From Rhodococcus pseudokoreensis (GTDB taxonomy: Bacteria; Actinomycetota; Actinomycetes; Mycobacteriales; Mycobacteriaceae), in assembly GCF_017068395.1 (NCBI RefSeq), contig NZ_CP070619.1:4898001-4962000 (forward strand): a stretch of 64,000 nucleotides of DNA, in the 5' to 3' direction. The translations under genes were made by a program, and so were the position numbers. Below the pieces are notes generated by a model that worked only from the letters and a program-made list of their open reading frames with translations, was not told the origin of the DNA and made no database searches. Shown here piece by piece: positions 11,736 to 29,460 of this stretch; position 1 is the first letter of the stretch, and each line of letters begins with the position of its first letter.

Positions 11736-11834
11736 TGTGGCGCACGACACAGCGGCTCGTAGCGTTCCTGGCACCGACGAAAGTGCGTGTTCAAGACAAT
11801 CCCACGCCCACGAATGGGCCGAACGGAGTATGTG

Positions 11835-12212
11835 ATGAGCGGAGACCTGAACGAGGTCGGGACCGGTGTCAACCTATTCACCGCAGGGGAGGTTCGCGGT
11901 ACTGCGAGGTGGTTCAACGACACGGCCGACGTGCTGTCGATCGACGACGACGACCTCGAGGACACTATCGCGTTCGTCAGCAAGGGCGGAATGACGTTCC
12001 TGTCGCCGATCCTGCCGGACCTGCGCGCGATCGTCTGTACGGCCGGTAGCCGGGAGTCGCACCTCGCGATCCTGTCGCGAGAGTCCGACGTCCCCTGCGT
12101 GCTCGCCGCCGACCTGACCGGAGCCGTCGCAGACGGCGACACCGTGGTCCTGGACCTGTCGGATACCGAGACCGCACGCGTGGCCGTCGCTGCCGGGGCG
12201 GTGACGGCGTGA
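11835..12212 (+). CDS. Stand-alone phosphohistidine swivelling domain protein (pair 1)
   Basis: A 125-residue protein made almost entirely of one PEP-utilising-enzyme mobile domain. The core GGMTFLSPILPDLRAIVCTA leads into RESHLAILSRESDVPCVLA, where the His corresponds to the phosphorylated His of PPDK/PEP synthase (TSHAAVV). In those enzymes this domain shuttles a phosphoryl group from the ATP-grasp site to the substrate. Here it is a separate subunit, and its stop overlaps the start of the next gene (GTGA), so the two are probably made in equal amounts. The same pair of domains is fused in the protein at 13409-15031. Confidence 0.82.
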   Translation: MSGDLNEVGTGVNLFTAGEVRGTARWFNDTADVLSIDDDDLEDTIAFVSKGGMTFLSPILPDLRAIVCTAGSRESHLAILSRESDVPCVLAADLTGAVADGDTVVLDLSDTETARVAVAAGAVTA

Positions 12213-13405
12213 CCGCACAACTGACCACTCCCGTGAACGTGGAGGCCCTGTACACCGACCCGGCCTACGAGCCCACACTCGAGGAATGGAACTGGCTTGT
12301 GCACGCCGCGGGTGCGGCCTACAAGTCCGAACTGTCGGCGCGGACCGTGTTCGAGTCGGAACTGTTCGGCATGAACACCTACATTCTGATGTCGATGATG
12401 GAGGACTACCTCCGGGTGCCGGAGCGCATCCGCACCATCCGACAGCACGCCACCCCCACCGAACTGGTGCGCAAGGCTCTGCCCATCGGCAACAAGCGCA
12501 GCTTCATCAACCTCGCGGCCACCCCGCTGCACTACCTCACCGGTCGTGAACTGTTCGTCGACCTCGGCGAGAACACCCTGTCGGACGGTCTGGAGGACCA
12601 GCTCGAGGTGCTGCGCTTCTGGCGCGAGGCGACCATCGCCATCCGCACCGACAACGTCCTGTTCAACATGGACGCGGAGCCGCAGAACAGTTCCCATGTA
12701 ATCGGCGGCGACTTGCTGGCGGAGATCCGGTCCCACCTGGTTCCCGCGGACGACGAGGTCAAGGCGGGGATTCGCAAGTTCGGTGCGCGGCTGACCGCGT
12801 ACGCGTTCCTGGAGAACTGCGACGCACGCACCGCGGTGTGCGACACCGGGCCCTATCAACTCGAGGACGGCACGTTCCTGGCGCTGCGCGAGACCTGCAC
12901 GGACGGTGACGGAGACTTCCCCTGGGTCGACGGCATCCGCGAAACGCTGCCCTACCACCATTTCGTCATCGCCCACCGGCTGCCCGCCACGGTGAAGATG
13001 GACAACAACGTCTGGGGCACAGCCTGGTTCACGCCGAGCGACTACCAGGCCGACATCATCGAAACCCGAGTGTTCTGCACCGACGGCGGCACCCTCCGCC
13101 CACTCGGCGCCGACGAGGTCGAGGAGGCCACCAAGGCGATCCGGAAGGCGCACCGAGCGCTGTACCAGCGGTTGGCCGAGACCGACGCCGAAGAACGCAA
13201 CCTGTACGCCACCGAGATGTACGCATGGAAGCTCAAGGCGTGGGCACGACTCGCCGGCTGCTACGACGAGATCGATTGGGCCATCACGCCGCGGATCGCC
13301 GAATCCTTCCAGAAGTTCAGCGACCCGGACCTCGCGCTGCAGTTGATCGGCGGCGTCTTCGTTCCGCAGAACCGCGACGGTTGCTTCCGTCCACTGGGAG
13401 GCTAG
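12209..13405 (+). CDS. Unrecognised family, phosphohistidine-partner protein 1
   Basis: A 398-residue soluble protein with no domain I can name. It shares a set of motifs with the proteins at 13409 (C-terminal part) and 17910: an SELFGMNTYILMSMMEDY helix, a GRELFVDLG motif near residue 110, then ENCDARTAVCDTGPY (general form C-[DE]-x-R-x-G/A-x-x-[DN]-[ST]-G-P-Y), a DFPWVDGI segment, and an NVWGTAWF strand. It always follows or is fused to a swivelling phosphohistidine domain, so it probably binds the molecule that receives the phosphoryl group. That role is inferred from association only. Confidence 0.75.
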   Translation: MTAQLTTPVNVEALYTDPAYEPTLEEWNWLVHAAGAAYKSELSARTVFESELFGMNTYILMSMMEDYLRVPERIRTIRQHATPTELVRKALPIGNKRSFINLAATPLHYLTGRELFVDLGENTLSDGLEDQLEVLRFWREATIAIRTDNVLFNMDAEPQNSSHVIGGDLLAEIRSHLVPADDEVKAGIRKFGARLTAYAFLENCDARTAVCDTGPYQLEDGTFLALRETCTDGDGDFPWVDGIRETLPYHHFVIAHRLPATVKMDNNVWGTAWFTPSDYQADIIETRVFCTDGGTLRPLGADEVEEATKAIRKAHRALYQRLAETDAEERNLYATEMYAWKLKAWARLAGCYDEIDWAITPRIAESFQKFSDPDLALQLIGGVFVPQNRDGCFRPLGG

Positions 13406-13408
13406 GTC

Positions 13409-15031
13409 ATGTCCATTCTCGGCAAGGGAAATCCGTCGTACTCCTTCGCGCCGGTCACCGGAACAGTGCACCATTTCCGGTCGCCGGACGACGTGATCGC
13501 CTCCCTCGACAGCGACCTCGAGTCCACGATCGCGCTCGTCGCGTCGGGCGGCACGACATTCCTTTCGCCGATCCTGGGTCGGCTCGGGGGAATCGTCTGC
13601 CTGGATGGAACACTCCGCTCGCACCTGGCGATCGTGTCACGAGAGTTCGAGGTCCCGTGCCTGGTCGGTACCGAACTGTCCGAGGACATCCCCGACGGTA
13701 CCGAGGTCACGCTCCGTATCGAGGAGCAGACGGGGGTCGTGGCTTCCCCGGATACTGAAACCGGATCGGATGTGAGCGCCGCGTGGTGGGAATACATCCG
13801 GCGCGTGGGAGACGAGATCGCCGTCAAGGACTTCATGGTCGACGTGACGGGCGCTGCGCTCGAGGCACTCATCTCCGAGGAACTCACCGACGACCGCCTC
13901 GACGACCTCGTCCAGCACATGGGCCGGGCATTCAAACCCGAATTGACGCGCCGCTCCGGTTTCACCTCCGAACTGTTTCCGATGCTGCCCTACATGTCGC
14001 TGTCGGTCATCGAGGACTTCCACAGCTACGTGGATCGGATACGCGTGATCGAGGCGGCTGTGCCGGCTGAAGAGTTGGGTCGCCGGTTGCGTGAGGGGCC
14101 GAACAAGGTCAGCCCGCTGTGGATCTGGATGATCGGCTACCACTTCCTCTGCGGTCGAGAGTGCCTGATACAGATGGGCACCATCGAGCCCGGTGACCAC
14201 CGGGAGGATATTCGCACCGTCGTGGACTTCTGGCGCCGGCTCACCCTGGCGCACCGTGGTGACGGCACACTCGACTACAAGGACGCCGGATTCACCAACC
14301 GCTACCTGTCGACAGCAGTCGTCGAGGAGCTGGTCGGCGCGGCAACGGTGTTGGACGCGACCACTGCGAAGAGCCTCAAGCGGCTGAACGCGACGGTCTC
14401 GGGATACTCGTTCCTGTACTTCTGTGACTCACGGGTCGGTATCTGCGACTCCGGTCCGTATCCGCGGCCGACGGGAAACCGGCAGACGATCGTGCGGGAC
14501 TATCTCTCCCTCGGCCCCAGCTCGTGGGCGTATCCATGGACGGACGATCTGGACCCGCCCTACACCGGGTTGACGATGGTCCTGACATTCGACCGCTCGA
14601 AGTTCACCGAGTTCGAAATCAACGACTGGGGAACAACGTTCACCGAACCCGATCAACTTCTCGCCGTCGTCGACGAAGCTGCCGTGTACGGGTACCGCGC
14701 CGACGGCACCCGTGAACTGATCGCGCCGGAAGACTGGCCGAGTGTTGCCGCGGATCTCAGCCGATGCCACATGGGCCTGTATCAGAAGTTCGCCACCATG
14801 GACCGGAGCGACCGAATTTTGGCCGCCACCACCATGTACACCTCAGGTCTTCGCCCCTTCGCCGCCCAGGCCGGGGTGACCGACCACGTCGACTGGGAGA
14901 TGTCGCCGAAGACCCTTGCGCTCTACCCCGATCCATTCGATGACGACGACAAGGCCGCGGCCATCTTCGGAGGTGCCCTGGTGGCACACGACATGCCCGG
15001 ATCCTTCTCGCCCATCCGCCCGAACTCCTGA
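13409..15031 (+). CDS. Fusion of phosphohistidine domain with the unrecognised partner family (pair 2)
   Basis: The 540-residue protein joins two modules that are separate in pair 1. Residues 1-115 are a phosphohistidine swivelling domain (GGTTFLSPILGRLGGIVCLD, then LRSHLAIVSREFEVPCLVG). After a short acidic linker, residues 150-540 match the partner family: TSELFPMLPYMSLSVIEDF, GRECLIQMG, YFCDSRVGICDSGPYP, YPWTDDL and INDWGTTF. The fusion is good evidence that the two modules work as one unit. It starts 3 nt after the previous stop and probably belongs to the same transcript. Confidence 0.82.
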   Translation: MSILGKGNPSYSFAPVTGTVHHFRSPDDVIASLDSDLESTIALVASGGTTFLSPILGRLGGIVCLDGTLRSHLAIVSREFEVPCLVGTELSEDIPDGTEVTLRIEEQTGVVASPDTETGSDVSAAWWEYIRRVGDEIAVKDFMVDVTGAALEALISEELTDDRLDDLVQHMGRAFKPELTRRSGFTSELFPMLPYMSLSVIEDFHSYVDRIRVIEAAVPAEELGRRLREGPNKVSPLWIWMIGYHFLCGRECLIQMGTIEPGDHREDIRTVVDFWRRLTLAHRGDGTLDYKDAGFTNRYLSTAVVEELVGAATVLDATTAKSLKRLNATVSGYSFLYFCDSRVGICDSGPYPRPTGNRQTIVRDYLSLGPSSWAYPWTDDLDPPYTGLTMVLTFDRSKFTEFEINDWGTTFTEPDQLLAVVDEAAVYGYRADGTRELIAPEDWPSVAADLSRCHMGLYQKFATMDRSDRILAATTMYTSGLRPFAAQAGVTDHVDWEMSPKTLALYPDPFDDDDKAAAIFGGALVAHDMPGSFSPIRPNS

Positions 15032-15045
15032 GAGGAGGCGCCCAC

Positions 15046-16191
15046 ATGCGCCAATCGATGCAGAAACTCATTCACGCCGACGAGCTGTTGTGTCACCAGA
15101 CGCCCGAAACCTTCGCGACCATCAGCCACGCCGACACGTCCTGGACGGAGAAACTCTGGGCGTCGCTGTTCGCCCGCGACGGGTCCATTCAGGTCGACAT
15201 CGGCCTCGGGAAATACCACAACCGGAACGTGATGGACATGTTCGCCGGCGTTTCGCGAGGGAAGGAGCAGCTGACGGTCCGTGCCAGCAGGCAGCTCGAT
15301 CTCGATGGCGAGCGGATCGGCGTGGGGCCCTTGGACTACGAGGTCATCGAGCCTCTCCGTCAGGTGCGCTGGGTCCTGCAGGAGAACGACGTGGTCCCAC
15401 TGCGATTCGACCTCACCATCACCGGAGTGCTGCCGCCGTTCCTGGAACAGAAGGACGTCCAGCGTGAGCCGCAGGGCTTCCGGGTGCAGTCCGACCTCCT
15501 CCGCTACCACCAGGCGTCGACGATCAGCGGCGAGATCTGGATCGACGGCGAGCGGATCGAGGTCCGGGACGAGGAATGGTTCGGCTTCCGCGACCACTCC
15601 TGGGGAGTGCGGATGGACGTCGGCGAGACGGCGCCCGACGTCTTCAAGCCGCAGCGCCTCGATGGCGACTTCATCCTCACCTGGAGTCCGATGTGGATGC
15701 AACGTCCCGATGGAAGTAGCTACGAAATCCATCACTACCTGCAGTGGGTCGACGGCGCCGTGACCTACTTCTCGGGTTTCGAGAACCTGCCGGACGGCAC
15801 TCAGCGGCAGCTTCACGGCATGCGGGACGAACTCAAGTACGATCCCGTCAACCGCCGCCTCCTCGGGGGCAAGATGACGTTCGACTCCGGTTGGGGCGAG
15901 ACCCGGACCCTCGAGATCGAACCGATCGGCGACACCGGTTTCCATCTCGGTACCGGCCTGTATTTCGGCTTCAAGGGGCACCGCCACGGGCAGTGGCACG
16001 GTCCGTCCCACCTGGACGGTGAGCGGTATGCCGATGTCTCCGAGGAGAATACGGCACGCGAGGTGCATCAACTGCGTGACTGTGTGATCAGGGTTCGTGA
16101 AGGCGACGCCGTCGGCTACGGCATCTTCGAATCGATGGTGATCGGTGAACATCCCCGCTACGGGCTGACGAAGGAGAGTTCCTTCCTCTGA
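15046..16191 (+). CDS. CrtC/AttH-like lipocalin-fold protein
   Basis: A 381-residue protein with the motif WFGFRDHSWGVRMD at about residue 180. This D-H-S-W-G signature is characteristic of the hydroxyneurosporene-synthase (CrtC)/AttH superfamily and its DUF relatives, which bind or hydrate terpenoid and polyketide-like compounds. The repeated beta pattern (ITGEIWIDGERIEVRD-like strands) fits a tandem lipocalin-type barrel. It closes the first half of the cluster 14 bp after pair 2. It could hydrate, isomerise or sequester the hydrophobic substrate. It has no signal peptide. The exact reaction is not deducible. Confidence 0.7.
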   Translation: MRQSMQKLIHADELLCHQTPETFATISHADTSWTEKLWASLFARDGSIQVDIGLGKYHNRNVMDMFAGVSRGKEQLTVRASRQLDLDGERIGVGPLDYEVIEPLRQVRWVLQENDVVPLRFDLTITGVLPPFLEQKDVQREPQGFRVQSDLLRYHQASTISGEIWIDGERIEVRDEEWFGFRDHSWGVRMDVGETAPDVFKPQRLDGDFILTWSPMWMQRPDGSSYEIHHYLQWVDGAVTYFSGFENLPDGTQRQLHGMRDELKYDPVNRRLLGGKMTFDSGWGETRTLEIEPIGDTGFHLGTGLYFGFKGHRHGQWHGPSHLDGERYADVSEENTAREVHQLRDCVIRVREGDAVGYGIFESMVIGEHPRYGLTKESSFL

Positions 16192-16236
16192 CCGGAGCGT
16201 GACGGGGCCGCGGACGAACAGTCTGCGGCCCCTTTG

Positions 16237-17067
16237 TCATATCCGCTGCGCCCGCGCCAGCAGCGCCAGTTCCATCCGTGACTGGCAACCGGTGGTCGTG
16301 AGGATTCGGGTGACGTACTTCTTCACGCTGTCCTCGGCGAGCGAGAGGATCTCGGCGATCTGCGCATTCGACAATCCGTCGGCGACGAGTCGGACAACCT
16401 GCCGCTGGCGCACGGAGAGTCGTGCGAGGGCCGCCTGCGACTTCGACGCGGGCAGGCCGCGGGCCATGGCCGACATCTGCTGGCTCAGCAGCCGCAGCGT
16501 GGCCGCCTCGGAGGCACCGATCTTGCCGGGCTCCGGGTCGAACATCCCCAGCAGTGCCGTGTGTCCCGCGCTCAACTCCAGGCGCAATGCGGCAGCGGTC
16601 TGCATGCGCCACGTGGAGGAGAGGAAGTATCGGACGTAGGCGTCGGCCGCCGCGGGCATCTGGCCCATCGACTGCAGTTCGTCCAGTGAGGACACGCCGC
16701 TGGAGACGAGTTGCCGCATCGCCGCCGGCGTGCCGAAGATGTCGTAGCGGGCCCACCTGTCCTGGTATTCGGGCAGCATCTTGGCGGTTTTGCCCGCGGT
16801 CAGGGGTGCCGAATCCTCGAACACGGTGTGGAAGGTCGCGCCGGCGAAGAACGAGACGTGTCTCAGGGCGAAGTGCTCACTGATCGCTTCGACGGCCCGT
16901 TCCTTGAAGTCGGGAAGGCAGGCCGCGCCGGAGCACTGTTCGAGGATGTCGAACGCGCGCTCGTAGTCGGCCTTGCTCAGGTTGGCTCGGAACGGGGAGC
17001 GGTTTCGGGACGAGGACTTTGCAGTCGGCGTTGTCCCGGAAGTGTCCCCCAACGTGGACTGGGTCAC
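16237..17067 (-). CDS. LuxR-type regulator of the carboxylation cluster
   Basis: A 276-residue regulator with a C-terminal GerE/LuxR helix-turn-helix at about 208-265 (LSVRQRQVVRLVADGLSNAQIAEILSLAEDSVKKYVTRIL) and an N-terminal sensor region of unknown type. It contains no recognisable receiver, PAS or ATPase domain. It lies opposite to and between the two halves of the cluster. The annotated GTG at 17067 lacks a good ribosome binding site, and the 16-bp box at 17044-17059 falls inside its first codons. The true start may therefore be a later TTG or GTG, leaving the box in the promoter. Autoregulation is likely. Confidence 0.82.
   Translation of the reverse strand: MTQSTLGDTSGTTPTAKSSSRNRSPFRANLSKADYERAFDILEQCSGAACLPDFKERAVEAISEHFALRHVSFFAGATFHTVFEDSAPLTAGKTAKMLPEYQDRWARYDIFGTPAAMRQLVSSGVSSLDELQSMGQMPAAADAYVRYFLSSTWRMQTAAALRLELSAGHTALLGMFDPEPGKIGASEAATLRLLSQQMSAMARGLPASKSQAALARLSVRQRQVVRLVADGLSNAQIAEILSLAEDSVKKYVTRILTTTGCQSRMELALLARAQRI
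17044..17059. promoter_or_regulatory. Second copy of the 16-bp box, at the LuxR start
   Basis: GTCCCCCAACGTGGAC differs by one base from the copy at 11720-11735. It overlaps the first codons of the longest LuxR frame and sits 130 nt before the divergent gene at 17189. It could serve both directions. Confidence 0.6.
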
Positions 17068-17188
17068 ACCACGGAGCGTAGCTAGTTTTATGTCACAACG
17101 CCAAGAAGCCGGAGAAAAAAATACCAGGTAGCCACCTGTTTCCGGCCGCGATGGCGGCTGCGTCAGTCCCTAGGAAACGTGAGGTGAC

Positions 17189-17905
17189 ATGTCCGACTCC
17201 GTGGTTACGCCCCCCAAATGGGGATCGACCGAAATGCTCCCATTGCCGGGCCGATTCAACACCGCTGTTCGGTCGTTGGCGGCACAACGATTCTCCGCCA
17301 CCGGAGAGCAATGGAAAGACAGCGTATTCGAACGTCAGTTCGATATTTTCTCGGTGGAGGATGCGCGAGCGATCGAGCAGGAGGCCCTGGATTCCGGGTA
17401 CCGGTTCGAATACTCCGCGACGGTCTCCCTCGAATCCGAGCCGCACAAGTACAAGCGAACCGACCGAGAGGCGCGGGCGTTCTCGGAAGACCGGGACTCG
17501 GACGGTCGCCGTCACGTGGGTATCGGCGACAACGTGATCAAGAAGTCCCAGACGGTCATCGGACCGGTCGCATTGATCTCCGCGGTCGAGCAGGTCATGG
17601 AATTGCTCACCGACGGCATCCCACCCGGCACGATCGCCGTGATCGACGACTCGGGCGGCACCTTGACGGCGCCGATCATCGAAGGGTTCGCCGGTGTCAT
17701 CTGCCTCGGCGGCACCGTGCGCTCGCACCTGGGCATCCTCGCCCGGGAGTACGACGTCCCCACGCTGATGAACTGCAAGATCAACGACCTGAAGAACGGC
17801 GACGTGGTCGAACTCGAAGTGACCGCGGCGCCCCCGGCAGCGGATGCCTACGAGACGGGTGACACCGGGCATGCCCGGATCTGGCTGATCGAAAGCGAGA
17901 GCTGA
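17189..17905 (+). CDS. Phosphohistidine swivelling domain protein with N-terminal extension (pair 3)
   Basis: The 238-residue protein has about 110 N-terminal residues of unknown fold (WKDSVFERQFDIFSVEDARAI, EFSYATVSLE-like strands, many charged residues). A phosphohistidine domain follows: GGTLTAPIIEGFAGVICLGG, VRSHLGILAREYDVPTLMN. The phosphoacceptor His is conserved. It is the first gene of the operon divergent from LuxR and lies 4 nt before its partner-family gene. The extension distinguishes it from pair 1 and may dock the kinase or a second substrate. Confidence 0.8.
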   Translation: MSDSVVTPPKWGSTEMLPLPGRFNTAVRSLAAQRFSATGEQWKDSVFERQFDIFSVEDARAIEQEALDSGYRFEYSATVSLESEPHKYKRTDREARAFSEDRDSDGRRHVGIGDNVIKKSQTVIGPVALISAVEQVMELLTDGIPPGTIAVIDDSGGTLTAPIIEGFAGVICLGGTVRSHLGILAREYDVPTLMNCKINDLKNGDVVELEVTAAPPAADAYETGDTGHARIWLIESES

Positions 17906-17909
17906 GACC

Positions 17910-19487
17910 ATGGCGAATCTGAACTACCGGACCCTGCTGGAGACCAACAACTACCTGCGGAGTCTGTCCGACACCACCTACTGGCTGTGCATCACGCGCA
18001 CGGTGCAGGAATCGAAGCTGTTCCCCATGAACCCGTACATGCTGGTGAGCTATCTCAACAGCTTCTACCGGTTGCCGACCCTGTTGCGCGAGATCGACGC
18101 GGCGACGCCGGCCGAGGAACTCGGAGACCGCGCCCGCGAGGTCAGCCTGAAGGTGGACACGGTCAACGCGGCGTGGGGCATGCCCGCGTTCTACCTCATC
18201 GGCCGGGAAATGCTGATGAACTGGGGGCTCCTGCGGCCCACCGACGCGGTCGACGACGTCGTCGACGTGCTCGACTTCTCCCGGCGGTTCAATCTGGCCT
18301 ACCACCGCAACGACGGACACCTGACGAACAAGGAATTCGGTGACCGCAGCCAGTTCCTGCCCGAACGAACCCTGCAGGTCTTCGAATCCGACCTGCACGG
18401 TGTGGTGCCCGGTGACCGGCTGCACACCGCCGCAACCAAACTCGTCGCCCAGCTGTCGCAGTACGCGTTCCTTGCGCACTGTGAGTGCCGCATCGGTCTG
18501 CACAACAGCGGCCCCTACGACTTCGGCAACAACCGGCAGATGATCATGCGGGACTTCTTCGACCTGACCGAGGGCGATTACCCGTGGCTCGACGGCATCG
18601 CCACCCAGTTGCCGTTCAATAATCTCACGATTCCGATCGTCTTCAAGGGCACCAACTTCCACTTGATGGACGACTGGGCGTCCTTCGAGGCCGAACCCGG
18701 ATACAACGCCGCCAACATCGAAGCGGTCGGGATGTACACCTCGGATGCGCTGACCGACGGATACATTCCGGTCGGCATGGACAACGCCGACACCCTGGCC
18801 GACACCATGGAGCAGTACCGCGAGATCCTCAACGAGGCGACCACCGACCTGTGGAAGCGGACCGCGACCTGGTCACGCGAGCAGATGATCGACGCCGGCG
18901 CCCTGGTCTACTCCTCGGTCGGCAAGGATTTCGCTCATCTCGCCGGAACCTACCGGCAGGACGACTGGTTTCAGGTCGACGAACGAGTGCAGCGATTCAA
19001 GCCCCTGCTCAACGACGAATACGGACGCGACAACCTCGGCGAGATGGTGGGTCTACTGGGATTGCCCCACCAGACGAGCAACGAGTACACCATGGCCCGC
19101 TATTCCGACCTGAACCGCAACATGCTCACCGGCATCCCCTTCTCGGTGCTCACCGACGACGACTACGCACCGACCGCCGGTGACCGGTTCACCGGATCGT
19201 CGAGCCTGCCCGGCAAGACCGGTTTGTGGACCACCAGCGCAGGCCGCATCGACATCGACGACTACAACACGCGCGCACAGGGATTCACGCCCGCCGTGCT
19301 CGACGGCGGCAACCGCTACCTCGACGAGGAATGGGTGAAGTGGAACCACGGGACCCCGCAGGCGGACGAGCTGTACCGCCTCGCGCAGCGAGGCTCACGG
19401 AACATCGAGGGCCGCGGGTCCGGGCTGCGTCGCGCCGACCTGCCCGCCGCCGATGGCACGAAGGGAACCGACGATGCAGATCGGTGA
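17910..19487 (+). CDS. Unrecognised family, phosphohistidine-partner protein 3
   Basis: A 525-residue member of the same family as 12209-13405. Shared motifs are ESKLFPMNPYMLVSYLNSFY, GREMLMNWG, LAHCECRIGLHNSGPYDFG and DYPWLDGI, with MDDWASF in place of the NVWGTAWF strand. It carries about 120 extra C-terminal residues (from GRDNLGEMVGLLGLPHQTSN onward) not found in the other two. Its end overlaps the next gene by 14 bp. A role in presenting the substrate to the phosphorylated swivelling domain is inferred from the pairing. Function is otherwise unknown. Confidence 0.75.
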   Translation: MANLNYRTLLETNNYLRSLSDTTYWLCITRTVQESKLFPMNPYMLVSYLNSFYRLPTLLREIDAATPAEELGDRAREVSLKVDTVNAAWGMPAFYLIGREMLMNWGLLRPTDAVDDVVDVLDFSRRFNLAYHRNDGHLTNKEFGDRSQFLPERTLQVFESDLHGVVPGDRLHTAATKLVAQLSQYAFLAHCECRIGLHNSGPYDFGNNRQMIMRDFFDLTEGDYPWLDGIATQLPFNNLTIPIVFKGTNFHLMDDWASFEAEPGYNAANIEAVGMYTSDALTDGYIPVGMDNADTLADTMEQYREILNEATTDLWKRTATWSREQMIDAGALVYSSVGKDFAHLAGTYRQDDWFQVDERVQRFKPLLNDEYGRDNLGEMVGLLGLPHQTSNEYTMARYSDLNRNMLTGIPFSVLTDDDYAPTAGDRFTGSSSLPGKTGLWTTSAGRIDIDDYNTRAQGFTPAVLDGGNRYLDEEWVKWNHGTPQADELYRLAQRGSRNIEGRGSGLRRADLPAADGTKGTDDADR

Positions 19488-20943: not shown

Positions 20944-20966
20944 CCGAGACACCGAAAGGACCAATC

Positions 20967-21575
20967 ATGCTCGACCCCAACGAACTCACCGTTCACACCC
21001 TGACCCTGCGTCAGCTCGGATCCGCCGAACAGCTCGCCGAGATCAACGCCCTCCCGATCGCCGACGTCGAGGCGGCGCTGGAAAAGGCCGTCGCGGACGG
21101 CGCGGTGATGGCCGCACGCGGCAACTACATGATCACCCCGGCCGGCCGCGAGTTCCTCGACGAGGTGTACCTCCGCGCCTTCGCCGGTCTGCGCGCGGAC
21201 CCCGCCGTCACCGACGCGATGGACTCCTTCGAGACCGGCGTCAACAAGCAGGTCCTCAGCCTGACCACCGACTGGCAGACCATCGAGGTCGACGGCGCCC
21301 GCGTGAGCAACGATCACGCCGACGCCGACTACGACGCCAAGATCGTCGAGAAACTCGGCCGCGTGCACGAGAAGACCCAGAAGGTCCTGCAGCCCCTGGC
21401 CCAGCAGAACCCGCTGGTCGATCGATTCCTCGACCGGATCGGCGCGGCGCTGATCCGCGCCGAGGGCGGCGAGACCGACTACGTCAGCGGCGTCCGCGTC
21501 GACTCCGTCCACACCGTGTGGTTCCAGATGCACGAACACATCCTCCGCCTCACCGGACGGGAGCGCCCCGAATGA
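20967..21575 (+). CDS. Winged-helix-like accessory protein coupled to the PPDK-like kinase
   Basis: A 202-residue protein. Residues 1-70 look like a winged helix (LTVHTLTLRQLGSAEQLAEI, VEAALEKAVADGAVMAARGNYMITPAGREFL). The rest is helical (KIVEKLGRVHEKTQKVLQPLAQQ, VDRFLDRIGAALIRAEGGE). It is not a convincing transcription factor: it overlaps the kinase gene by 4 bp (ATGA) and has GAAAGGA 6 nt before its ATG. A stoichiometric regulatory or structural subunit of the kinase is more likely, comparable in position to the small third subunit of phenylphosphate synthase, although it has no CBS domains. Confidence 0.65.
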   Translation: MLDPNELTVHTLTLRQLGSAEQLAEINALPIADVEAALEKAVADGAVMAARGNYMITPAGREFLDEVYLRAFAGLRADPAVTDAMDSFETGVNKQVLSLTTDWQTIEVDGARVSNDHADADYDAKIVEKLGRVHEKTQKVLQPLAQQNPLVDRFLDRIGAALIRAEGGETDYVSGVRVDSVHTVWFQMHEHILRLTGRERPE

Positions 21576-23311: not shown

Positions 23312-23841
23312 CCACGCCGGAACGGGTGACCCACCGCGAGGTGCGGGAGATCCTGCGCACCTTCCAGGACTCCGGATGGGCCGCCATGACCCTCGAACTC
23401 GACGGCATGCGTATCACCGTCGGCAAGGACGGCCCTCCGGCCACAGCGGGCCAGTCGGCGGCCCCGGCCCCGGTCCCGGCCCTGGCCTCGACCCCGATGC
23501 CTGCTGCCGCCCCCGCCACCGCCGTGCCTCCGGCCGCGAGCGCCCCTGCCGCGCCTGCACCGCCCGCACCGGCCGCCGACGTGGACACCGCCGGCTGCAT
23601 CGAGGTTCGATCCCAGACCGTCGGCGCCTTCTGGGTGGCCCCCGGCCCCGGTGAGCCGCCGTTCGTGCAGGTCGGGCAGATCGTCGAGGCCGGGCAGCAG
23701 ATCGCCATCGTCGAGGTCATGAAGCTGATGAACCCGGTGGTCACCCCCCACGGCGGGGAGATCGTGCAGATCTGCGCCACCAACGCGGACCTGGTCGAAT
23801 TCGACCAGGTGCTGTTCCTGATCAGGCCGACCGATGGCTAG
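23308..23841 (+). CDS. Biotin carboxyl carrier protein (BCCP)
   Basis: A 177-residue BCCP. An N-terminal helical region is followed by a long Ala/Pro linker (about residues 45-92) and a C-terminal biotinyl domain ending DLVEFDQVLFLIRPTDG. The biotinylation motif is EVMKLMN, with Lys139 as the expected biotin site. Overall it resembles the AccB type of acetyl-CoA carboxylase. The gene overlaps the kinase before it (ATGA) and the biotin carboxylase after it by 8 bp. This is strong evidence that the phosphotransfer and carboxylation genes work together. Confidence 0.92.
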   Translation: MTTPERVTHREVREILRTFQDSGWAAMTLELDGMRITVGKDGPPATAGQSAAPAPVPALASTPMPAAAPATAVPPAASAPAAPAPPAPAADVDTAGCIEVRSQTVGAFWVAPGPGEPPFVQVGQIVEAGQQIAIVEVMKLMNPVVTPHGGEIVQICATNADLVEFDQVLFLIRPTDG

Positions 23842-25243
23842 CCCGTCGACCCTGACCACCGAGTCACCGCGCCGCACCCCGCTGCGGCGGGTCCTGGTCG
23901 CCAACCGCGGGGAGATCGCGGTCCGCGTGATCAAGGCCTGCCGCGCCCTCGGCATCGAAACGGTCGCGGTGACCTCGACCGTGGACCGCGACGGACTGGC
24001 CGCCCGGATGGCGGACCGCGCGGTGTGCATCGGCCCCGCCCCGGCAGCGCAGAGCTACCTGGCGATCCCCGCAGTGCTCAGCGCCGCGCTCGGCGCCGGC
24101 TGCGACGCCGTGCACCCCGGCTACGGGTTCCTGTCGGAGAACCCGGAATTCGCCGCCGCCTGCGTCGCCGAGGGCCTCACCTTCGTCGGACCGCGGCCGG
24201 AAGCGGTCGCCCAGGCCGGCGACAAGGCCCGCGCCCGCGAACTCGCCCGTTCGGCCGGTATCCCCGTGCTGTCGGGATCGCCGGTGATCGACTCGACCGA
24301 GGCCGCGGTCGCCGCGGCCGCCGAGCTCGGCTATCCCGTGTTGGTCAAGGCCGCCGCCGGCGGCGGCGGCCGGGGAATGTCGGTGGTCGAGAACGAGTCC
24401 GAGCTGAGGGCCCGCTGGTCGTCGGCTGCGGCGGAGGCCCAGTCGGCGTTCGGCGACGGACGACTGTACGTCGAGCGATTCATCCGCAACGCCCGCCACA
24501 TCGAGGTCCAGGTGCTCGGGGACAAACACGGCTCCGTCATCCACCTCGGCGAACGCGACTGCACCCTGCAACGGCGTCACCAGAAGGTCGTCGAGGAATC
24601 GCCGGCACCCAACCTGCCCGAGACGATTCGTCAGGACATCCGACGCAGCGGAGTTCTGTTCGCCGAGGCGCTCGGGCTCGACAGCGCCGGAACCGTCGAA
24701 TTCATCTACGACGCAGACACCCACGAGTTCGCTTTCCTCGAGTTCAACGCCCGAATCCAGGTCGAACACCCCGTGACCGAGATGGTCACCGGCGTGGACC
24801 TGGTCGCCGAGCAACTGCGTTCGGCGGCCGGCGAACCGCTCCGCTTCACCCAGGACGACATCGCCCTGACCGGGCACGCCATCGAGGTTCGCATCACCAC
24901 CGAGGATCCGGCCCGCGGTTTCATCCCCAACCCGGGCACGGTGCAGACGTGGGATCCCCCGGAGGGGGAGGGCATTCGCGTCGACAGCCACTGCGAAACC
25001 GGCTACGTCGTCACGCCCTACTACGACTCCCTGCTCGCCAAGATCGTGGCACACGGGACCGACCGTGACGTCGCAGCGGACCGGATGGTCGCTGCCCTGG
25101 GCCGACTGGGGGTGACCGGAGTTCCCACCACCGCGGATTTCGCCCGGGTGGCCCTGGACCATCCGGACTTCCGGGCCGGCACCGTCACCACCGACTGGAT
25201 CGCCTCTCGGGGCCTCCCCGACTACTTGGAGAAGATCTCATGA
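23834..25243 (+). CDS. Biotin carboxylase
   Basis: The 469-residue ATP-grasp enzyme carboxylates the biotin of BCCP with bicarbonate and ATP. Visible hallmarks are RVLVANRGEIAVRVIKACRA, HPGYGFLSENPEFA, the glycine loop AAAGGGGRGMSVVENE, GERDCTLQRRHQKVVEESPA and the active-site segment EFNARIQVEHPVTEMVTGVD. The usual MNTR is EFNAR here, with the catalytic Arg kept. The first 18 residues are extra; GTG or ATG codons before RRVLVANR are alternatives. It is a separate BC subunit rather than the fused pyruvate-carboxylase form. Confidence 0.93.
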   Translation: MASPSTLTTESPRRTPLRRVLVANRGEIAVRVIKACRALGIETVAVTSTVDRDGLAARMADRAVCIGPAPAAQSYLAIPAVLSAALGAGCDAVHPGYGFLSENPEFAAACVAEGLTFVGPRPEAVAQAGDKARARELARSAGIPVLSGSPVIDSTEAAVAAAAELGYPVLVKAAAGGGGRGMSVVENESELRARWSSAAAEAQSAFGDGRLYVERFIRNARHIEVQVLGDKHGSVIHLGERDCTLQRRHQKVVEESPAPNLPETIRQDIRRSGVLFAEALGLDSAGTVEFIYDADTHEFAFLEFNARIQVEHPVTEMVTGVDLVAEQLRSAAGEPLRFTQDDIALTGHAIEVRITTEDPARGFIPNPGTVQTWDPPEGEGIRVDSHCETGYVVTPYYDSLLAKIVAHGTDRDVAADRMVAALGRLGVTGVPTTADFARVALDHPDFRAGTVTTDWIASRGLPDYLEKIS

Positions 25244-26742
25244 GTTACCTCGACTGTGCCCCGCGTAACGCCGACGGCAGCAAGCGCAAGATCGACATCG
25301 TCGACCAGACGCTGCGCGACGGCCCCCAGAGTTGGTGGGGCATGCGGCTGCGCAAGGACATGGGTCTGCCCATGGCGTCCGAGCTGGACCGCACCGGCTT
25401 CCACACCATCGACCTCGCCGGAAGCTCACTCTTCGAGGTGCTCGTGCGGCACTGCAAGGAAGATCCGTGGGAGCAGCTGATCTCGCTGTCGAAGTCGATG
25501 CCGGAGACGACGGTTCGCGCCGGTACCCGCAGCAACGGCATCGTCACGTTCGGCCTCACTGCCGACAGCGTGATGGACCTGTGGGTGCAGCGACTGATCG
25601 CCCACGGCATCGGCAGCTTCTGGATCTACGACGGCCTGTTCAACATCGACAAGATCGGCCGTCTGGTCAAGACCGTGCAGGCCGAGGGCGCGAAGGCACT
25701 GCCCTGCATCCTCTTCGCTGACACCCCGTACCACACCGACGAGTACTACGCCGCCCGCACACGGGAGCTGGTCGGTCTCGGCGCCGACGGCATCGAACTC
25801 GAAGACGCCGCCGGACTACTCACCCCCGAACGCACCCGTTCCCTCGTCGCGGCCATCAAGGGCGCGGCCGGAAACCTGCCGGTGGAGATCCACTTCCACA
25901 GCAACAACGCCCTCGCACCCCTGAACTATCTCGAAGGCATCCTCGCCGGCGCAGATCGTGTCCACACGGCAAGCCGCCCGCTCGCCGCCGGGGTGTCGCT
26001 GCCCTCGACGGAGAACACCGTCGCGAACCTGCGCTACGCCGGATTCGACGTCGACGTCGACGAGTCCCGCTTCGCCGCAGTCGAACAGCACCTGCTGCGG
26101 GTCGCGGAGTACGAGGACCTGCCCGTCGGCCAGCCGGCCGAGTACTCCCTGTTCCAGTACCGGCACCAGCTTCCCGGCGGCATGGCGGGCACGTTCAAGG
26201 CGCAGCTGCGGGACCGCGGCATGGAGGATCGTTTCGAAGAGGTCCTCGACGAGATGTCCCGGGTGCGAGAAGAACTCGGCTACCCCGTCATGGCCACCCC
26301 GTTCTCCCAGCTGGTCGGCACCCAGGCGGTGCTGAACGTGGTGACCGGGTCGCGGTACTCGGTGGTGCCGGACGAGGTGATGATCTACGCGCACGGCTTC
26401 TACGGCCAACCGGCCGCGCCGATGGACCCGAACGTGCTCGACACCATCATGAGCTCACCCAAGGCCAAGAGCTACCAGAACTGGGAGCCCCCGCAGCCGA
26501 GCCTGGACGAACTGCGCAAGAAGTTCGGTGGGTCGATCAGCGACGACGAACTGCTTCTGCGACTCCTCGTCCCGGAGAACGACATCGATGTCATGCGCGC
26601 GACCCCGCAACGCAACCGCGACTTCGCCCCGACCAGCAAGCAGATGAAGTACATCAGGGACCTGGTCGAGACATCCGTGGGTGCCTACCTGCACATCGAG
26701 GCGGACGACTTCTCCCTGACTTTGGAAGGCGATCACCGATGA
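25240..26742 (+). CDS. PYC/OADA-type carboxyltransferase subunit with altered active site
   Basis: The 500-residue protein matches the carboxyltransferase part of pyruvate carboxylase and oxaloacetate decarboxylase alpha. An HMGL-like barrel (VDQTLRDGPQSWWGMRLRKD, HFHSNNALAPLNYLEG) is followed by the PYC_OADA domain (YRHQLPGGMAGTFKAQL, TPFSQLVGTQAVLNVVTG, HGFYGQPAAPMDP). These enzymes move carboxyl from carboxybiotin to an enol(ate). The position of the carbamylated metal-ligand Lys (family IKDMAGLL) reads ELEDAAGLL, near residue 186, so the Lys is replaced by Glu. The usual RDAHQS is RDGPQS. A substrate other than pyruvate is therefore likely, for example a ketone or its enol phosphate. Confidence 0.85.
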   Translation: MSYLDCAPRNADGSKRKIDIVDQTLRDGPQSWWGMRLRKDMGLPMASELDRTGFHTIDLAGSSLFEVLVRHCKEDPWEQLISLSKSMPETTVRAGTRSNGIVTFGLTADSVMDLWVQRLIAHGIGSFWIYDGLFNIDKIGRLVKTVQAEGAKALPCILFADTPYHTDEYYAARTRELVGLGADGIELEDAAGLLTPERTRSLVAAIKGAAGNLPVEIHFHSNNALAPLNYLEGILAGADRVHTASRPLAAGVSLPSTENTVANLRYAGFDVDVDESRFAAVEQHLLRVAEYEDLPVGQPAEYSLFQYRHQLPGGMAGTFKAQLRDRGMEDRFEEVLDEMSRVREELGYPVMATPFSQLVGTQAVLNVVTGSRYSVVPDEVMIYAHGFYGQPAAPMDPNVLDTIMSSPKAKSYQNWEPPQPSLDELRKKFGGSISDDELLLRLLVPENDIDVMRATPQRNRDFAPTSKQMKYIRDLVETSVGAYLHIEADDFSLTLEGDHR

Positions 26743-27149
26743 GTGAGCTGGGGGTGGGGCGGCCGACCAAGCGCCGCGCCGGGTCCGCCGTCGGGGGGCT
26801 GCCCGTCGCAGACTCGCGTCCTGTCCTCGACGGCGATGCCGTACTCGGGTCCCGGTGCACGGTGTGCCGGTACCCGACCGCGCAGCAGCATCTGCCGTGG
26901 TGCCCGGTGTGCTACGGCGCCACCGAACCGGCCCGCTTCGCCCGCACGGGCAAGACCTGGTCATCGACCGTGGTTGCGATCCCCGTGGGCACCCGCCGTC
27001 CGCCGTTCGGGCTGGCGTATGTCGATCTCGACGACGGCCCAAGGGTACTCGCTCATCTCGACGAACCCGCGGTACTCGCGCTCGGTACTCGCCTCGAGAT
27101 CACCGGAACAGACGACGGCGACCTCGTCGCCACTACGGAGGTGCAGTGA
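26739..27149 (+). CDS. DUF35 OB-fold/zinc-ribbon partner of the thiolase
   Basis: A 136-residue protein with a rubredoxin-like zinc ribbon, CTVCRYPTAQQHLPWCPVC, followed by an OB-fold (TWSSTVVAIPVGTRRPPFGLAYVDLDD). DUF35/ChsH2-type proteins act as obligate partners of thiolases, HMG-CoA synthases and SCP2-like enzymes and channel acyl-CoA substrates. The genes before and after overlap it by 4 and 1 bp. Its pairing with the next gene supports a two-subunit thiolase. Confidence 0.88.
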   Translation: MSELGVGRPTKRRAGSAVGGLPVADSRPVLDGDAVLGSRCTVCRYPTAQQHLPWCPVCYGATEPARFARTGKTWSSTVVAIPVGTRRPPFGLAYVDLDDGPRVLAHLDEPAVLALGTRLEITGTDDGDLVATTEVQ

Positions 27150-28288
27150 TGAACCAGGCCATGTTGTGGGGCGTCGGAACCTCGTCCTACGGCCGATTCC
27201 CCGACCAGCGAGTCGAGTCACTCGCCTGGACCGCGGTCGCCGAAGCAGTCCAGGACGCCGGCATCCGGCCCGACGAGATCGACGCGATCATAGTCGGGTC
27301 GGTGTTCGGCCCGCCCGGGGTGGCCACCCGCATCCAACGCGGACTCGGCATTCCCTCCGTGCCCATGTGGACAGTCGAAAATGCCTGCGCCAGCGGCACC
27401 GCGGCCTACCACGAAGCAGTGGAGGCCGTGCGGCACGGCCGATTCAAATGCGTTCTGGTTCTCGGGGTCGATCAGATGTCGACCCTGTTCTCCGGGGCCA
27501 TCGTGCCGGAGGCGACCGACCCGGAAGGCGCTGCATCGCTGCCGTTGCCGGGGCTCTACGCTCTGCAGGCGCAGCGGTACGTCGGCGAATTCGGGGTCAC
27601 CCCGGAACAACTCGCGGCGATCGCGGTCAAGAACAAGACCAACGGGATGGACAACCCCCGCGCCCAGTTGCGTGACACGGTGCCCACGGTTCAGGAGGTG
27701 CTCGACTCCCGCATGATCGCCGAACCGTTGACGTTCCTGCAGTGCTGCCCGACCAGCGACGGGGCCGGCGCCGCCATCGTCGGCGGCGACCGCGGCGACC
27801 GCAGCGATCTGCGGATCGAGGCCTCGGCGATGGTCTCCGGTGCCCTGTGGGACCAGCGCAGCGAGGACGTCTGGGGATTTGCCAGCGTCGCCCGCGCTGC
27901 CGAGAAGGCGTTCGACCAGGCCGGCCGCACCCCGCAGGAGATCGACGTTCTCGAGGTGCACGACGCCTTCACCATCGGTGAGATCATCACCCTCGAGGCG
28001 CTCGGCATCGCACCCCGCGGCAAGGGCGCCGAACTCGCCCCCTCCGGTCACACCACCCGCGATGGGGCGCAACCGGTCAACCCGAGCGGAGGCCTGCTCT
28101 CACGCGGACATCCCCTCGGTGCAACCGGAATGGCGCAACTGGCCGAAATCGCCTGGCAACTGCGCGGACAGGCGGGACCGCGGCAGGTCGCCCGGCATCG
28201 CGTCGGGCTCGTCGAGACGATGGGTGGGGGAGCGGCAGGAATGGACGGCAACGCCTGCGTGGTCACCATCCTGTCCACCCAGTCATGA
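27149..28288 (+). CDS. SCP2/thiolase-family enzyme
   Basis: The 379-residue thiolase-fold protein is of the SCP-x/lipid-transfer type. The nucleophile segment is WTVENACASGTAAYHEA (Cys near residue 80), the general-base region is LEVHDAFTIGEI, and the C-terminal motif is SRGHPLGATGMAQL, so catalytic Cys and His are in place. The conserved EMGGGAAG-type loop appears as ETMGGGAAGMDGNACV. It should cleave a beta-ketoacyl-CoA to acetyl-CoA (or another short acyl-CoA) and a shortened acyl-CoA, the expected last step of a ketone carboxylation route. Confidence 0.9.
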   Translation: MNQAMLWGVGTSSYGRFPDQRVESLAWTAVAEAVQDAGIRPDEIDAIIVGSVFGPPGVATRIQRGLGIPSVPMWTVENACASGTAAYHEAVEAVRHGRFKCVLVLGVDQMSTLFSGAIVPEATDPEGAASLPLPGLYALQAQRYVGEFGVTPEQLAAIAVKNKTNGMDNPRAQLRDTVPTVQEVLDSRMIAEPLTFLQCCPTSDGAGAAIVGGDRGDRSDLRIEASAMVSGALWDQRSEDVWGFASVARAAEKAFDQAGRTPQEIDVLEVHDAFTIGEIITLEALGIAPRGKGAELAPSGHTTRDGAQPVNPSGGLLSRGHPLGATGMAQLAEIAWQLRGQAGPRQVARHRVGLVETMGGGAAGMDGNACVVTILSTQS

Positions 28289-29460
28289 CCACGACCTACG
28301 CAGGGCTTCTCGGCTTCCGGGACGTCGGTGGGCTGCGTACCCGGGACGGCGGCCGCGTCCGGGCAGGAGTGCTCTTCCGCAGTGGGACACCGCAGTTCCT
28401 GGACGGGCAGTCGGCTCGGAAGCTGATCGCAGACACCGGGATCCGGGCGACCATCGATCTGCGGCTGCCTCACGAGGTCGCGGTGGAGGGGCGGGGACCT
28501 CTCGACGAGTTGGGGGTTCGCCACTTCCCCCACCCGTTCAGCATCGGCGACCGCGTGGCCGAGGACTCGGCGGTTGCCCCGATGGACGGTGACGATCCGC
28601 TGGTCACCCGCTACCTGAAGTACCTGGCCGAGGATGCCGCCGGGGTCGTTTCGCTGTCCACACGACTTCTCGAGCCTGCCGTTCTCCCGGTCTTGGTGCA
28701 CTGCACCGTCGGCAAGGACCGGACCGGAGTGGCGGTCGCACTGCTCTTGGACGCCATCGGGGTACTCCGCGAGGACATCGCCGCGGACTACGCCGCCGCT
28801 CCCGACGACGTCACCGCATCCATGCGGCGACTGCGGCAGATGGCGTCGTACGGTCCTGCCGCCGACCTCTACCCACCGGAGGCGTGGACGGCGCCGGCGG
28901 ACGCGATGGAACGGTTCCTCGGCAGCGTCGACCGGCGGTACGGCGGGACCCGCAACCTGCTTCAGGACAACGGTATAGGGCCGGAGGAGATCCGCCGACT
29001 GATCGAACTGCTCATCACCTACGACGACGCAACGACGAAGGAGCACCGCATGCGAGTAACCGAAACCTGCGTCATCCGGACAACACCCGATGCCGTGTGG
29101 AAGGTCGGCGGAGACACCGCGAACGTCGCGGACTGGATTCCCGCGCTGGAGAAGTCGCACCAGCACGGTGACCTGCGGTACGCGACTTTCGCCAACGGCG
29201 GAGGCGAGGCGACGGAGCGGATCGTCCACCACGACGATCCGCAGCGAAGCTACACCTACGAGTACGTATCCGGGCCCCTGCCTCTGTCGTACTATTCCTC
29301 CACCTTCACCGTCAACGATCACCCCGACGGCGCCGAAGTCGTGTGGAGTGCCGATTTCGCATCCACGTCTCCTGAGAGTGAACCCGAACTCGCAGCGGCG
29401 ATCACAGACATCTACCGGTCCGCGTTGATCGAATTGGCCAACCACACAGAAGCGCACTGA
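28285..29460 (+). CDS. Tyrosine-phosphatase-family domain fused to SRPBCC domain
   Basis: The 391-residue protein has two parts. Residues 1-250 are a bacterial Y_phosphatase3-type phosphatase: FRDVGGLRTRDGGRVRAG, then the P-loop VHCTVGKDRTGVAVALLLDA with Cys140 and Arg146. Residues 256-391 are an SRPBCC/polyketide-cyclase-like ligand-binding domain (CVIRTTPDAVWKVGGDTANV). An in-frame ATG at 29050 starts the second domain and has AAGGAG 6 nt upstream, so a separate SRPBCC protein may also be made. A phosphatase in a cluster with a phosphoryl-transfer system could release phosphate from an activated intermediate. This is inferred. Confidence 0.82.
   Translation: MTTTYAGLLGFRDVGGLRTRDGGRVRAGVLFRSGTPQFLDGQSARKLIADTGIRATIDLRLPHEVAVEGRGPLDELGVRHFPHPFSIGDRVAEDSAVAPMDGDDPLVTRYLKYLAEDAAGVVSLSTRLLEPAVLPVLVHCTVGKDRTGVAVALLLDAIGVLREDIAADYAAAPDDVTASMRRLRQMASYGPAADLYPPEAWTAPADAMERFLGSVDRRYGGTRNLLQDNGIGPEEIRRLIELLITYDDATTKEHRMRVTETCVIRTTPDAVWKVGGDTANVADWIPALEKSHQHGDLRYATFANGGGEATERIVHHDDPQRSYTYEYVSGPLPLSYYSSTFTVNDHPDGAEVVWSADFASTSPESEPELAAAITDIYRSALIELANHTEAH

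Follow-up and report, generated by a model that had tools for sequence, protein, structure and literature searches.

What does a kinase of the pyruvate, phosphate dikinase (PPDK) type do beside a biotin carboxylase, a coenzyme A (CoA) ligase and a thiolase? The question is raised by a gene cluster of Rhodococcus pseudokoreensis, which lies in a stretch of 64,000 nucleotides of contig NZ_CP070619.1 (positions 4,898,001 to 4,962,000; hereafter the window). Using Pfam and NCBIfam, we assigned 16 genes to 11814-29460, in the order B, C, D, E, R, F, G, H, X, I, J, K, L, M, N and O, all on the plus strand apart from the LuxR-type regulator gene R (16237-17067, minus strand; PF00196, 50 bits), which divides the cluster into two runs. 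A first-pass annotation had read from it an ATP- and biotin-dependent ketone carboxylation followed by CoA ligation and thiolysis. Every part that it named was recovered, namely the kinase, the phosphohistidine (swivel) proteins, biotin carboxylase (BC), biotin carboxyl carrier protein (BCCP), pyruvate carboxylase (PYC)-type carboxyltransferase (CT), ligase, thiolase, DUF35 protein and phosphatase-SRPBCC protein, whereas E (15046-16191), X (20967-21575) and a domain common to C, D and G (hereafter the C-type domain) had been left unnamed. It had also noted that most genes overlap by 1-14 bp, and this holds for 9 of the 13 same-strand junctions (B/C 4 bp, G/H 14, X/I 4, I/J 4, J/K 8, K/L 4, L/M 4, M/N 1 and N/O 4); C/D, D/E, F/G and H/X are spaced by 3, 14, 4 and 23 bp.

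We put at just short of even the chance that the cluster encodes a pathway in which a hydroxyl of a ketone-bearing substrate is phosphorylated, the ketone is carboxylated next to its carbonyl, the phosphate is removed, and the beta-keto acid is cleaved as a CoA ester. Kinase I would move phosphate from ATP to its own swivel histidine, as suggested by the published autophosphorylation of its relative VadK, and together with X would hand it on to the histidine of a second swivel, in F, B or D, as the gene content of 68 of 68 loci suggests. G, C or D would hold the substrate while its phenolic or alcoholic hydroxyl is phosphorylated, a step proposed by analogy with the HpeHI kinase and from the lyase and phosphatase neighbours. 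J, K and L would then carboxylate the phosphorylated ketone, O (or SurE in other bacteria) would dephosphorylate the product, H would form the CoA ester, and N with M would thiolyse it. For the unit B-C-D-E of Actinomycetota, another hydroxyl may be phosphorylated and E may eliminate the phosphate to leave an alkene, in keeping with the reaction proposed for 25-phosphosteroid lyase. The novelty lies in the parts, for the order of phosphorylation, biotin-dependent carboxylation, dephosphorylation, CoA activation and cleavage has already been published as Hpe/Acv (PMC9618137).

Conservation of the cluster and the published Hpe and Acv pathways

A scan of genome_contigs with seven query sequences of the G family gave 145 relatives, and the best 80 of 145 were kept. 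Of 83 loci, 77 were analysed (74 of the 80 best relatives plus L037-L039), six of 7 kb or less having been dropped; the loci were picked by G alone, and tblastn cross-matches relatives more readily than gene calling. The results showed that G, I and L occur together in 60 of the 77 loci, across Actinomycetota, Pseudomonadota and Bacillota. These 60 include Rhodococcus, Gordonia, Nocardia, Amycolatopsis, Pseudonocardia, Acidithrix, Nanopelagicales, Nevskia, Novosphingobium, Rhodobacteraceae-like genera and a Bacillus, and the carriers include metagenome-assembled genomes (MAGs) from lakes, the sea and groundwater. Among the 60, gene calling and tblastn found F in 54 and 60 (other swivels may cross-match in the tblastn count), X in 45 and 59, BCCP in 43 and 57, BC in 52 and 56, and the ligase in 53 and 57, and a thiolase of either of two families was called in 58. 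The first-pass annotation had proposed a search for co-occurrence across actinobacteria and had held that homologous clusters without ligase and thiolase would contradict it; the families travel together beyond the actinobacteria, and both enzymes are widely kept. Plasmids of R. oxybenzonivorans S2-17 and R. pyridinivorans P23 carry the whole set with its gene order unchanged (CT 92% and 90% identical), which, together with the 60 loci, argues that the cluster is more than a chance assembly. Anatomy and conservation thus support the earlier idea that a carboxylation dependent on ATP and biotin is coupled to CoA ligation and thiolysis.

The cluster is accessory. G or a related C-type protein occurs in 9 of 298 genomes of the order, the own genome included (at 50% identity or more in six), and L at E<=1e-60 in 7 of 61 genomes, again with the own one (at 92% or more in five). 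The closest named relative is R. koreensis DSM 44498, with a G that is 98% identical. The LuxR family of R was found in 23 of the 77 loci.

The enzymes predicted to end the pathway are an AMP-forming acyl-CoA ligase (H, 19474-20943; PF00501, 237 bits), a DUF35 OB-fold protein presumed to be the thiolase partner (M, 26739-27149; PF01796) and an SCP2-type thiolase with the Cys motif ENACASG (N, 27149-28288; Pfam). In the PDB, N is closest to the SCP2-thiolase 6hsj (8.6e-67), and the benzoylsuccinyl-CoA thiolase subunit 7pxp_C also matches (1e-59).

The published pathway resembles this arrangement. As excerpted, the report on Rhodococcus rhodochrous GD02 (Dexter et al. 2022, PMC9618137) describes HpeHI as phosphorylating acetovanillone and 4-hydroxyacetophenone, the biotin carboxylase HpeCBA as acting on the phosphorylated ketone only, and HpeD as removing the phosphate, with HpeE and HpeF as the proposed enzymes for forming and cleaving the CoA ester; Acv of Sphingobium SYK-6 is described as homologous to Hpe (PMC9618137; PMC12167813, both in excerpt). 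Like Hpe and Acv, the window combines in one operon a swivel dikinase, a three-part biotin carboxylase with a PYC-type transferase, a phosphatase and a CoA ligase, with a predicted cleavage of a beta-keto acid. The first-pass annotation had seen here a different solution to ketone carboxylation; this stands for the parts and not for the whole logic, which the excerpted Hpe report (PMC9618137) already contains. The parts differ throughout. The window kinase has a PPDK-type ATP-grasp plus swivel with separate second swivels and a C-type subunit, while HpeI is an ATP-grasp alone, closer to phosphoenolpyruvate (PEP) synthase, and HpeH resembles rifampin phosphotransferase and carries a C-terminal swivel. 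A tyrosine-phosphatase-like protein (PTP) or SurE replaces HpeD, which is a NagD-like HAD protein, a thiolase takes the place of the beta-ketoacyl-CoA hydrolase, the CT belongs to another clade with its carbamyl-lysine replaced, and the lyase-like E and the extra modules B, C and D go beyond Hpe.

Could the cluster be the Hpe/Acv pathway with exchanged parts, acting on 4-hydroxyacetophenone or a close lignin ketone? The same order of chemistry, the resemblance of the thiolase to the benzoylsuccinyl-CoA thiolase subunit BbsB among others, and an HpaB-type phenol hydroxylase gene near the cluster on plasmid pA of R. pyridinivorans P23 speak for this, but we consider it decidedly unlikely. The HpeI reference (R. 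leguminosarum, L127) matched nothing beyond L127, L126 and a PEP-synthase-like frame of the own genome (L001), where the loci compared include the 98% relative of the window (L045) and not the window itself; the HpeD reference matched five loci, none of them, as with HpeI, among L045-L124. The window CT is 33-38% identical to the five Hpe-type CTs, and the lake, marine and groundwater MAG carriers suggest that the substrate may be broader. The BbsB-like thiolase relatives and the HpaB-type gene are a hint of an aromatic substrate, and mycofactocin-linked short-chain dehydrogenases/reductases (SDRs) on two Rhodococcus plasmids would also suit terpenoid alcohols.

The biotin-independent acetone and acetophenone carboxylases use hydantoinase-type HyuA/HyuB subunits, which the first-pass annotation had reported as missing; likewise, a Pfam scan of the cluster genes gave no domain of this type. 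A literature search of open-licence PubMed Central (PMC) text by titles and abstract starts returned the Hpe, VadK and steroid papers and none on this gene set, and listings of papers on R. oxybenzonivorans and R. pyridinivorans P23 held no pointer to the cluster. A study of acetone use by Desulfococcus biacutus, in its excerpted text, places a PPDK gene in a CO-dehydrogenase cluster. If the proposed pathway is true, phosphorylation followed by biotin-dependent carboxylation, published for a few lignin-ketone degraders, would be a much wider catabolic strategy (145 G relatives in one scan).

The kinase and its swivel partners

The product of I (21572-23311) is a PPDK-type protein with ATP-grasp and swivel domains. 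Its alignment with PPDK from the PDB ends near residue 558 of 874, so that the PEP/pyruvate barrel is missing. It matches NF004531 with 779 bits against a cut-off of 456 (NCBIfam), a family that we take to be that of Rv1127c/VadK, and the GG.TSHAAVV-type motif is kept in 62 of 65 kinases I. From these comparisons, kinase I is not of the HpeHI type; we rejected membership on the grounds that the HpeI reference fails to match the core loci and that I has its own swivel.

VadK (Rv1127c) is described in the excerpted report as an autophosphorylating histidine kinase that binds and tunes enzymes of the methylcitrate cycle, and the excerpt states that the genome holds no partner with a pyruvate/PEP domain (PMC13400623). 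Both proteins share a truncated architecture, with an ATP-grasp and a swivel that has the catalytic His, and have no PEP/pyruvate barrel. They differ in that VadK is described as a regulator, whereas the window kinase belongs to a catabolic operon, where X, swivel and C-type genes accompany it. One may ask whether I is likewise a regulatory protein-histidine kinase with the swivels as its targets, the carboxylase working on an unphosphorylated ketone or acid. The NF004531 membership and the action of VadK on methylcitrate-cycle enzymes are in favour of this, but the F-G-X-I genes are conserved inside a catabolic operon in distant phyla, and the neighbouring phosphatase and phosphate-lyase homologue argue for a phosphorylated metabolite. 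We regard a purely regulatory role as very unlikely.

The swivel and C-type proteins come in three modules. B (11814-12212; alternative ATG at 11835) is a free-standing swivel protein with the motif GSRESHLAILSR (PF00391, 37 bits), and the [GS..ESHL] motif was found in 18 of 18 B proteins; its predicted partner is C (12209-13405), a C-type domain of 398 amino acids that may bind the substrate. D (13409-15031; 540 amino acids) fuses a swivel (PF00391, 35 bits) to a C-type domain. F (17189-17905) is a swivel protein with the motif GTVRSHLGILAR (PF00391, 29 bits), and it precedes G (17910-19487), a C-type protein of 525 amino acids predicted to be the substrate-binding subunit of the core kinase. 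The C-type domain of C, D and G matches no Pfam family, and C shares 28-31% identity with the regions of D and G in loci L037 and L038. The AlphaFold2 model of D had a mean predicted local distance difference test score of 90.4, and good fold matches were confined to about residues 1-120. A substrate-binding fold of the RPH/HpeH type was absent from the Foldseek/VIA lists for G and for D beyond its swivel, an absence that neither excludes such a domain nor proves a new fold.

The product of X has 202 amino acids with a weak winged-helix-like N-terminus. X lies within -60 to 200 bp of the kinase gene in 40 of the 47 loci with both on the plus strand, and in R. opacus B4 it is fused to a swivel and a C-type domain. 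Exactly one kinase I was found in each of the 68 loci with I and G (stretches of up to about 44 kb, most of 21 kb), together with one to three C-domain genes (three in 21 of the 68). This ratio, the same in all 68 loci, suggests one engine that serves several interchangeable substrate modules. The kinase is likely a new multi-part design, in which a VadK-like ATP-grasp/swivel engine with X would charge second swivels on C-type subunits. Rifampin phosphotransferase, phenylphosphate synthase PpsAB and CreHI, given as small-molecule dikinases with ATP-grasp and swivel in the excerpted PMC12167813, differ from it in that the window has two swivels on the presumed phosphate path.

More broadly, we tentatively propose, at somewhat below an even chance, a phosphorelay for catabolism that resembles a phosphotransferase system. 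I and X would charge the interchangeable modules F+G, B+C and D, whose fold is unmatched in the PDB, and the products would be passed on to one of two enzymes: a member of the 25-phosphosteroid-lyase family, for ATP-dependent dehydration, or a biotin carboxyltransferase of a new class that lacks the carbamyl-lysine centre. If so, VadK-type 'orphan' kinases would gain a general partner system. The cluster offers truncated PPDK kinases a testable role, and it also provides a kinase subunit whose fold has no match in the PDB.

The carboxyltransferase site and the proposed fate of the phosphate

The carboxylase is encoded by J (BCCP, 23308-23841; PF00364), K (BC, 23834-25243; PF02786, PF00289 and PF02785; NF006367, 610 bits) and L (CT of the PYC/OADA type, 25240-26742; PF02436 and PF00682). 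The biotin motif E[VI]MKL of the BCCP is intact in 46 of 46 proteins and the BC motif in 53 of 54. The CT is changed at the position of the carbamylated active-site lysine of pyruvate carboxylase: this is Glu in 29 and Tyr in 30 of 59 core-locus CTs and Lys in none, and the window has Glu (IELEDAAG). This lysine is also missing in the CTs of L043 (Glu) and L130 (Ser), while all five Hpe-type CTs retain Lys and His-x-His.

In a tree of 33 chosen rows, the window CT fell in a 20-row clade (100/99) and the five Hpe-type rows in another (100/100). Both clades and one Sulfitobacter row form a 26-row group (98/96), within which the tree does not settle the order, apart from OadA, pyruvate carboxylase and a Caballeronia/Arthrobacter pair. 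Hpe-type rows were assigned by gene context: L127 is the HpeHI-type cluster of Rhizobium leguminosarum, L126, from Rhodococcus JS3073, shows matches to HpeH/HpeI, and Tm-1-like genes adjoin the CTs of L125, L040 and L129. The R. leguminosarum CT is 50-54% identical to the other four. L shares HMGL-like and PYC_OADA domains with the CTs of pyruvate carboxylase and oxaloacetate decarboxylase and differs from them in its clade and in the Glu or Tyr of the core loci. An ordinary anaplerotic function, with PPDK and pyruvate carboxylase lying by chance beside a catabolic operon, would agree with the automatic annotations, which give 'pyruvate, phosphate dikinase' on the plasmids and 'pyruvate carboxylase subunit B' for some relatives, but kinase I has no pyruvate domain, the CT stands apart without the carbamyl-lysine, and the linkage with ligase and thiolase is conserved. 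On the missing barrel and the CT clade we rejected this explanation as scarcely credible. The Caballeronia and Arthrobacter plasmids themselves carry free-standing operons of PYC-type CT, BCCP and BC (L044:9998-13410 and L133:4947-8345), which keep the usual lysine and have no kinase annotated nearby.

The first-pass annotation had preferred a plain ketone that the kinase turns into an enol phosphate, to be carboxylated with loss of phosphate to the beta-keto acid. The lost lysine (59 of 59 CTs), as might follow from a pre-activated acceptor, is the best argument for that route and one result that leans toward the earlier proposal; the PPDK ancestry of I and the 25 of 60 loci without PTP or SurE also agree with it. 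But the kinase lacks the PEP/pyruvate barrel, and the carboxylase-free module of R. opacus B4 adjoins a phosphate-lyase homologue, dehydrogenases and a PTP, which suggests phosphorylation of a carbinol. An enol phosphate consumed on carboxylation would moreover need no phosphatase, and 35 of the 60 loci have one. We therefore judge the enol phosphate fairly unlikely. The better reading is that a hydroxyl is phosphorylated, in line with the phenol or alcohol phosphorylation that the annotation had offered as its second choice; it is favoured by the R. opacus B4 module and by the phosphatase genes, which 29 of the 46 larger loci (at least 20 kb) carry. The altered metal site is relevant to the way in which biotin enzymes activate their acceptors.

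The predicted phosphatase O (28285-29460) fuses a Tyr-phosphatase-like domain (HCTVGKDRT; PF13350, 157 bits) to SRPBCC (PF10604, 69 bits) and may act on small molecules. The HCxxGKDRT motif is present in 21 of 21 O proteins, and O is split into two separate genes in L037 and L038. Among the 60 loci, PTP was found in 21 (19 by direct match to O), SurE in 15 and both in one, so that PTP and SurE are possibly non-homologous replacements of each other. A tRNA-Pro (ggg) called by ARAGORN at 28478-28557 sits within the coding gene O and was taken as a false positive.

E belongs to the Rv3169 family (NF053593, 386 bits against a cut-off of 150) and is homologous over residues 7-372, its full length, to 25-phosphosteroid lyase (PDB 9fzn/9g2i/9g4c, E-value 4.4e-25; the lyase is named from the PDB entries). 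The excerpted steroid papers on Sterolibacterium denitrificans (PMC8449060, PMC11061730) present this lyase as the putative partner of 25-hydroxysteroid kinase in the ATP-dependent dehydration of tertiary alcohols, and describe for that kinase a sequential mechanism via a ternary complex and not through phosphohistidine. The likeness lies in an alcohol that is phosphorylated and loses its phosphate by elimination, while the window kinase is derived from PPDK and a steroid substrate is not implied. From this homology, E probably eliminates phosphate from a phosphorylated intermediate, and the cluster would also link the Rv3169 family to this reaction. Where C or D is present (27 loci), E was found in 25, of which gene calling gave 22 and tblastn three more, and the two exceptions are stretches of 8 and 12 kb; of the 50 loci with neither, one has E. 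The E-D-C-B unit is divergent from F-G at four loci, two from Gordonia and one each from Nocardia and Millisia.

Several observations weigh against the pathway of hydroxyl phosphorylation followed by carboxylation. The excerpts of the cited literature hold no description of phosphate transfer from swivel to swivel. With Lys replaced by Glu or Tyr, and with His-x-Asn in at least 28 of the 59 core-locus CTs, catalysis need not resemble that of HpeCBA, and the altered site would also suit an acceptor that arrives activated, for example an enol phosphate. The CT tree has flagged long branches, and the CT of the L043 plasmid nests inside the core 20-row clade with no kinase match within its 21 kb. 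Of the 60 loci, tblastn detects the N-type thiolase in no more than 41 and DUF35 in 25, the ligase reaches 45% identity in 48, and the distance matrices of six core genes correlate only moderately (Spearman 0.36-0.73, 40 loci). PTP and SurE are missing in 17 of the 46 loci of at least 20 kb as well as in the 25 of 60, so a phosphatase may lie elsewhere or not be needed, and the target of a PTP-like domain is not necessarily a small molecule. Finally, DUF7065 neighbours of two further carboxylase-free modules (L131 and L132) were set aside as evidence for a phosphate lyase, since the comparisons do not establish kinship to E (BLASTP against E, E-value 0.011; no PDB lyase match).

Related modules and neighbouring genes

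Modules of swivel, C-type, X and I genes with no J/K/L match in their stretches were found in R. opacus B4 (L041), Rhodococcus 008 (L132), Paraburkholderia PGU19 (L131) and the own genome (L017). On the R. opacus B4 plasmid, a protein of 793 amino acids (L041:9911-12292) fuses the swivel, C-type and X domains. It adjoins PTP, alcohol dehydrogenase and aldehyde dehydrogenase genes and a clear 25-phosphosteroid-lyase homologue (E-value 1.4e-35), the only one among these four modules, with P450, ferredoxin and ecdysteroid-kinase-like genes also near. About 30-115 kb upstream of the cluster, the own genome (C6:4794442-4879114; L009-L013) encodes seven proteins with a C-terminal swivel, four E-like genes or pieces of the 25-phosphosteroid-lyase family, and one kinase+X pair; a whole-genome PPDK_N search found no separate HpeI-type ATP-grasp gene to serve these swivel proteins. 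On the plasmid of Methylibium petroleiphilum PM1, C-type, swivel and X genes (L042:9701-12590) lie a few kb upstream of cobalamin-dependent mutase genes, with no kinase I match in 21 kb.

Plasmids of Pseudomonas putida YC-AE1, Sphingomonas bisphenolicum AO1 and Novosphingobium humi (L125, L040 and L129) carry a Tm-1-like ATP-binding gene beside an Hpe-type CT and a HAD phosphatase match, and the first two also hold BCCP and BC. Such Tm-1-like genes are possibly a third kinase type for the same logic. If the proposed pathway is true, phosphorylation-then-carboxylation would have been reached by at least two kinase designs, and perhaps by this third.

We also sought a clue to the substrate in the neighbouring genes of the window and its relatives, and no single substrate emerged. 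Ten flank proteins were scanned in all for the window; upstream lie genes of a fatty-acid desaturase, SelO, a 60-kDa membrane insertase and an ABC transporter, and downstream those of a galactarate dehydratase, a permease, an SDR and MmgE/PrpD. The flanks of the relatives hold SDR, GntR, SurE, transporter, enoyl-CoA hydratase, TonB and regulator genes. RibB-like genes (3,4-dihydroxy-2-butanone-4-phosphate synthase) lie near the cluster at L037:7777-8994 and L038:32127-32771, on two plasmids where flavin reductase genes accompany them, and after gene N in L060.

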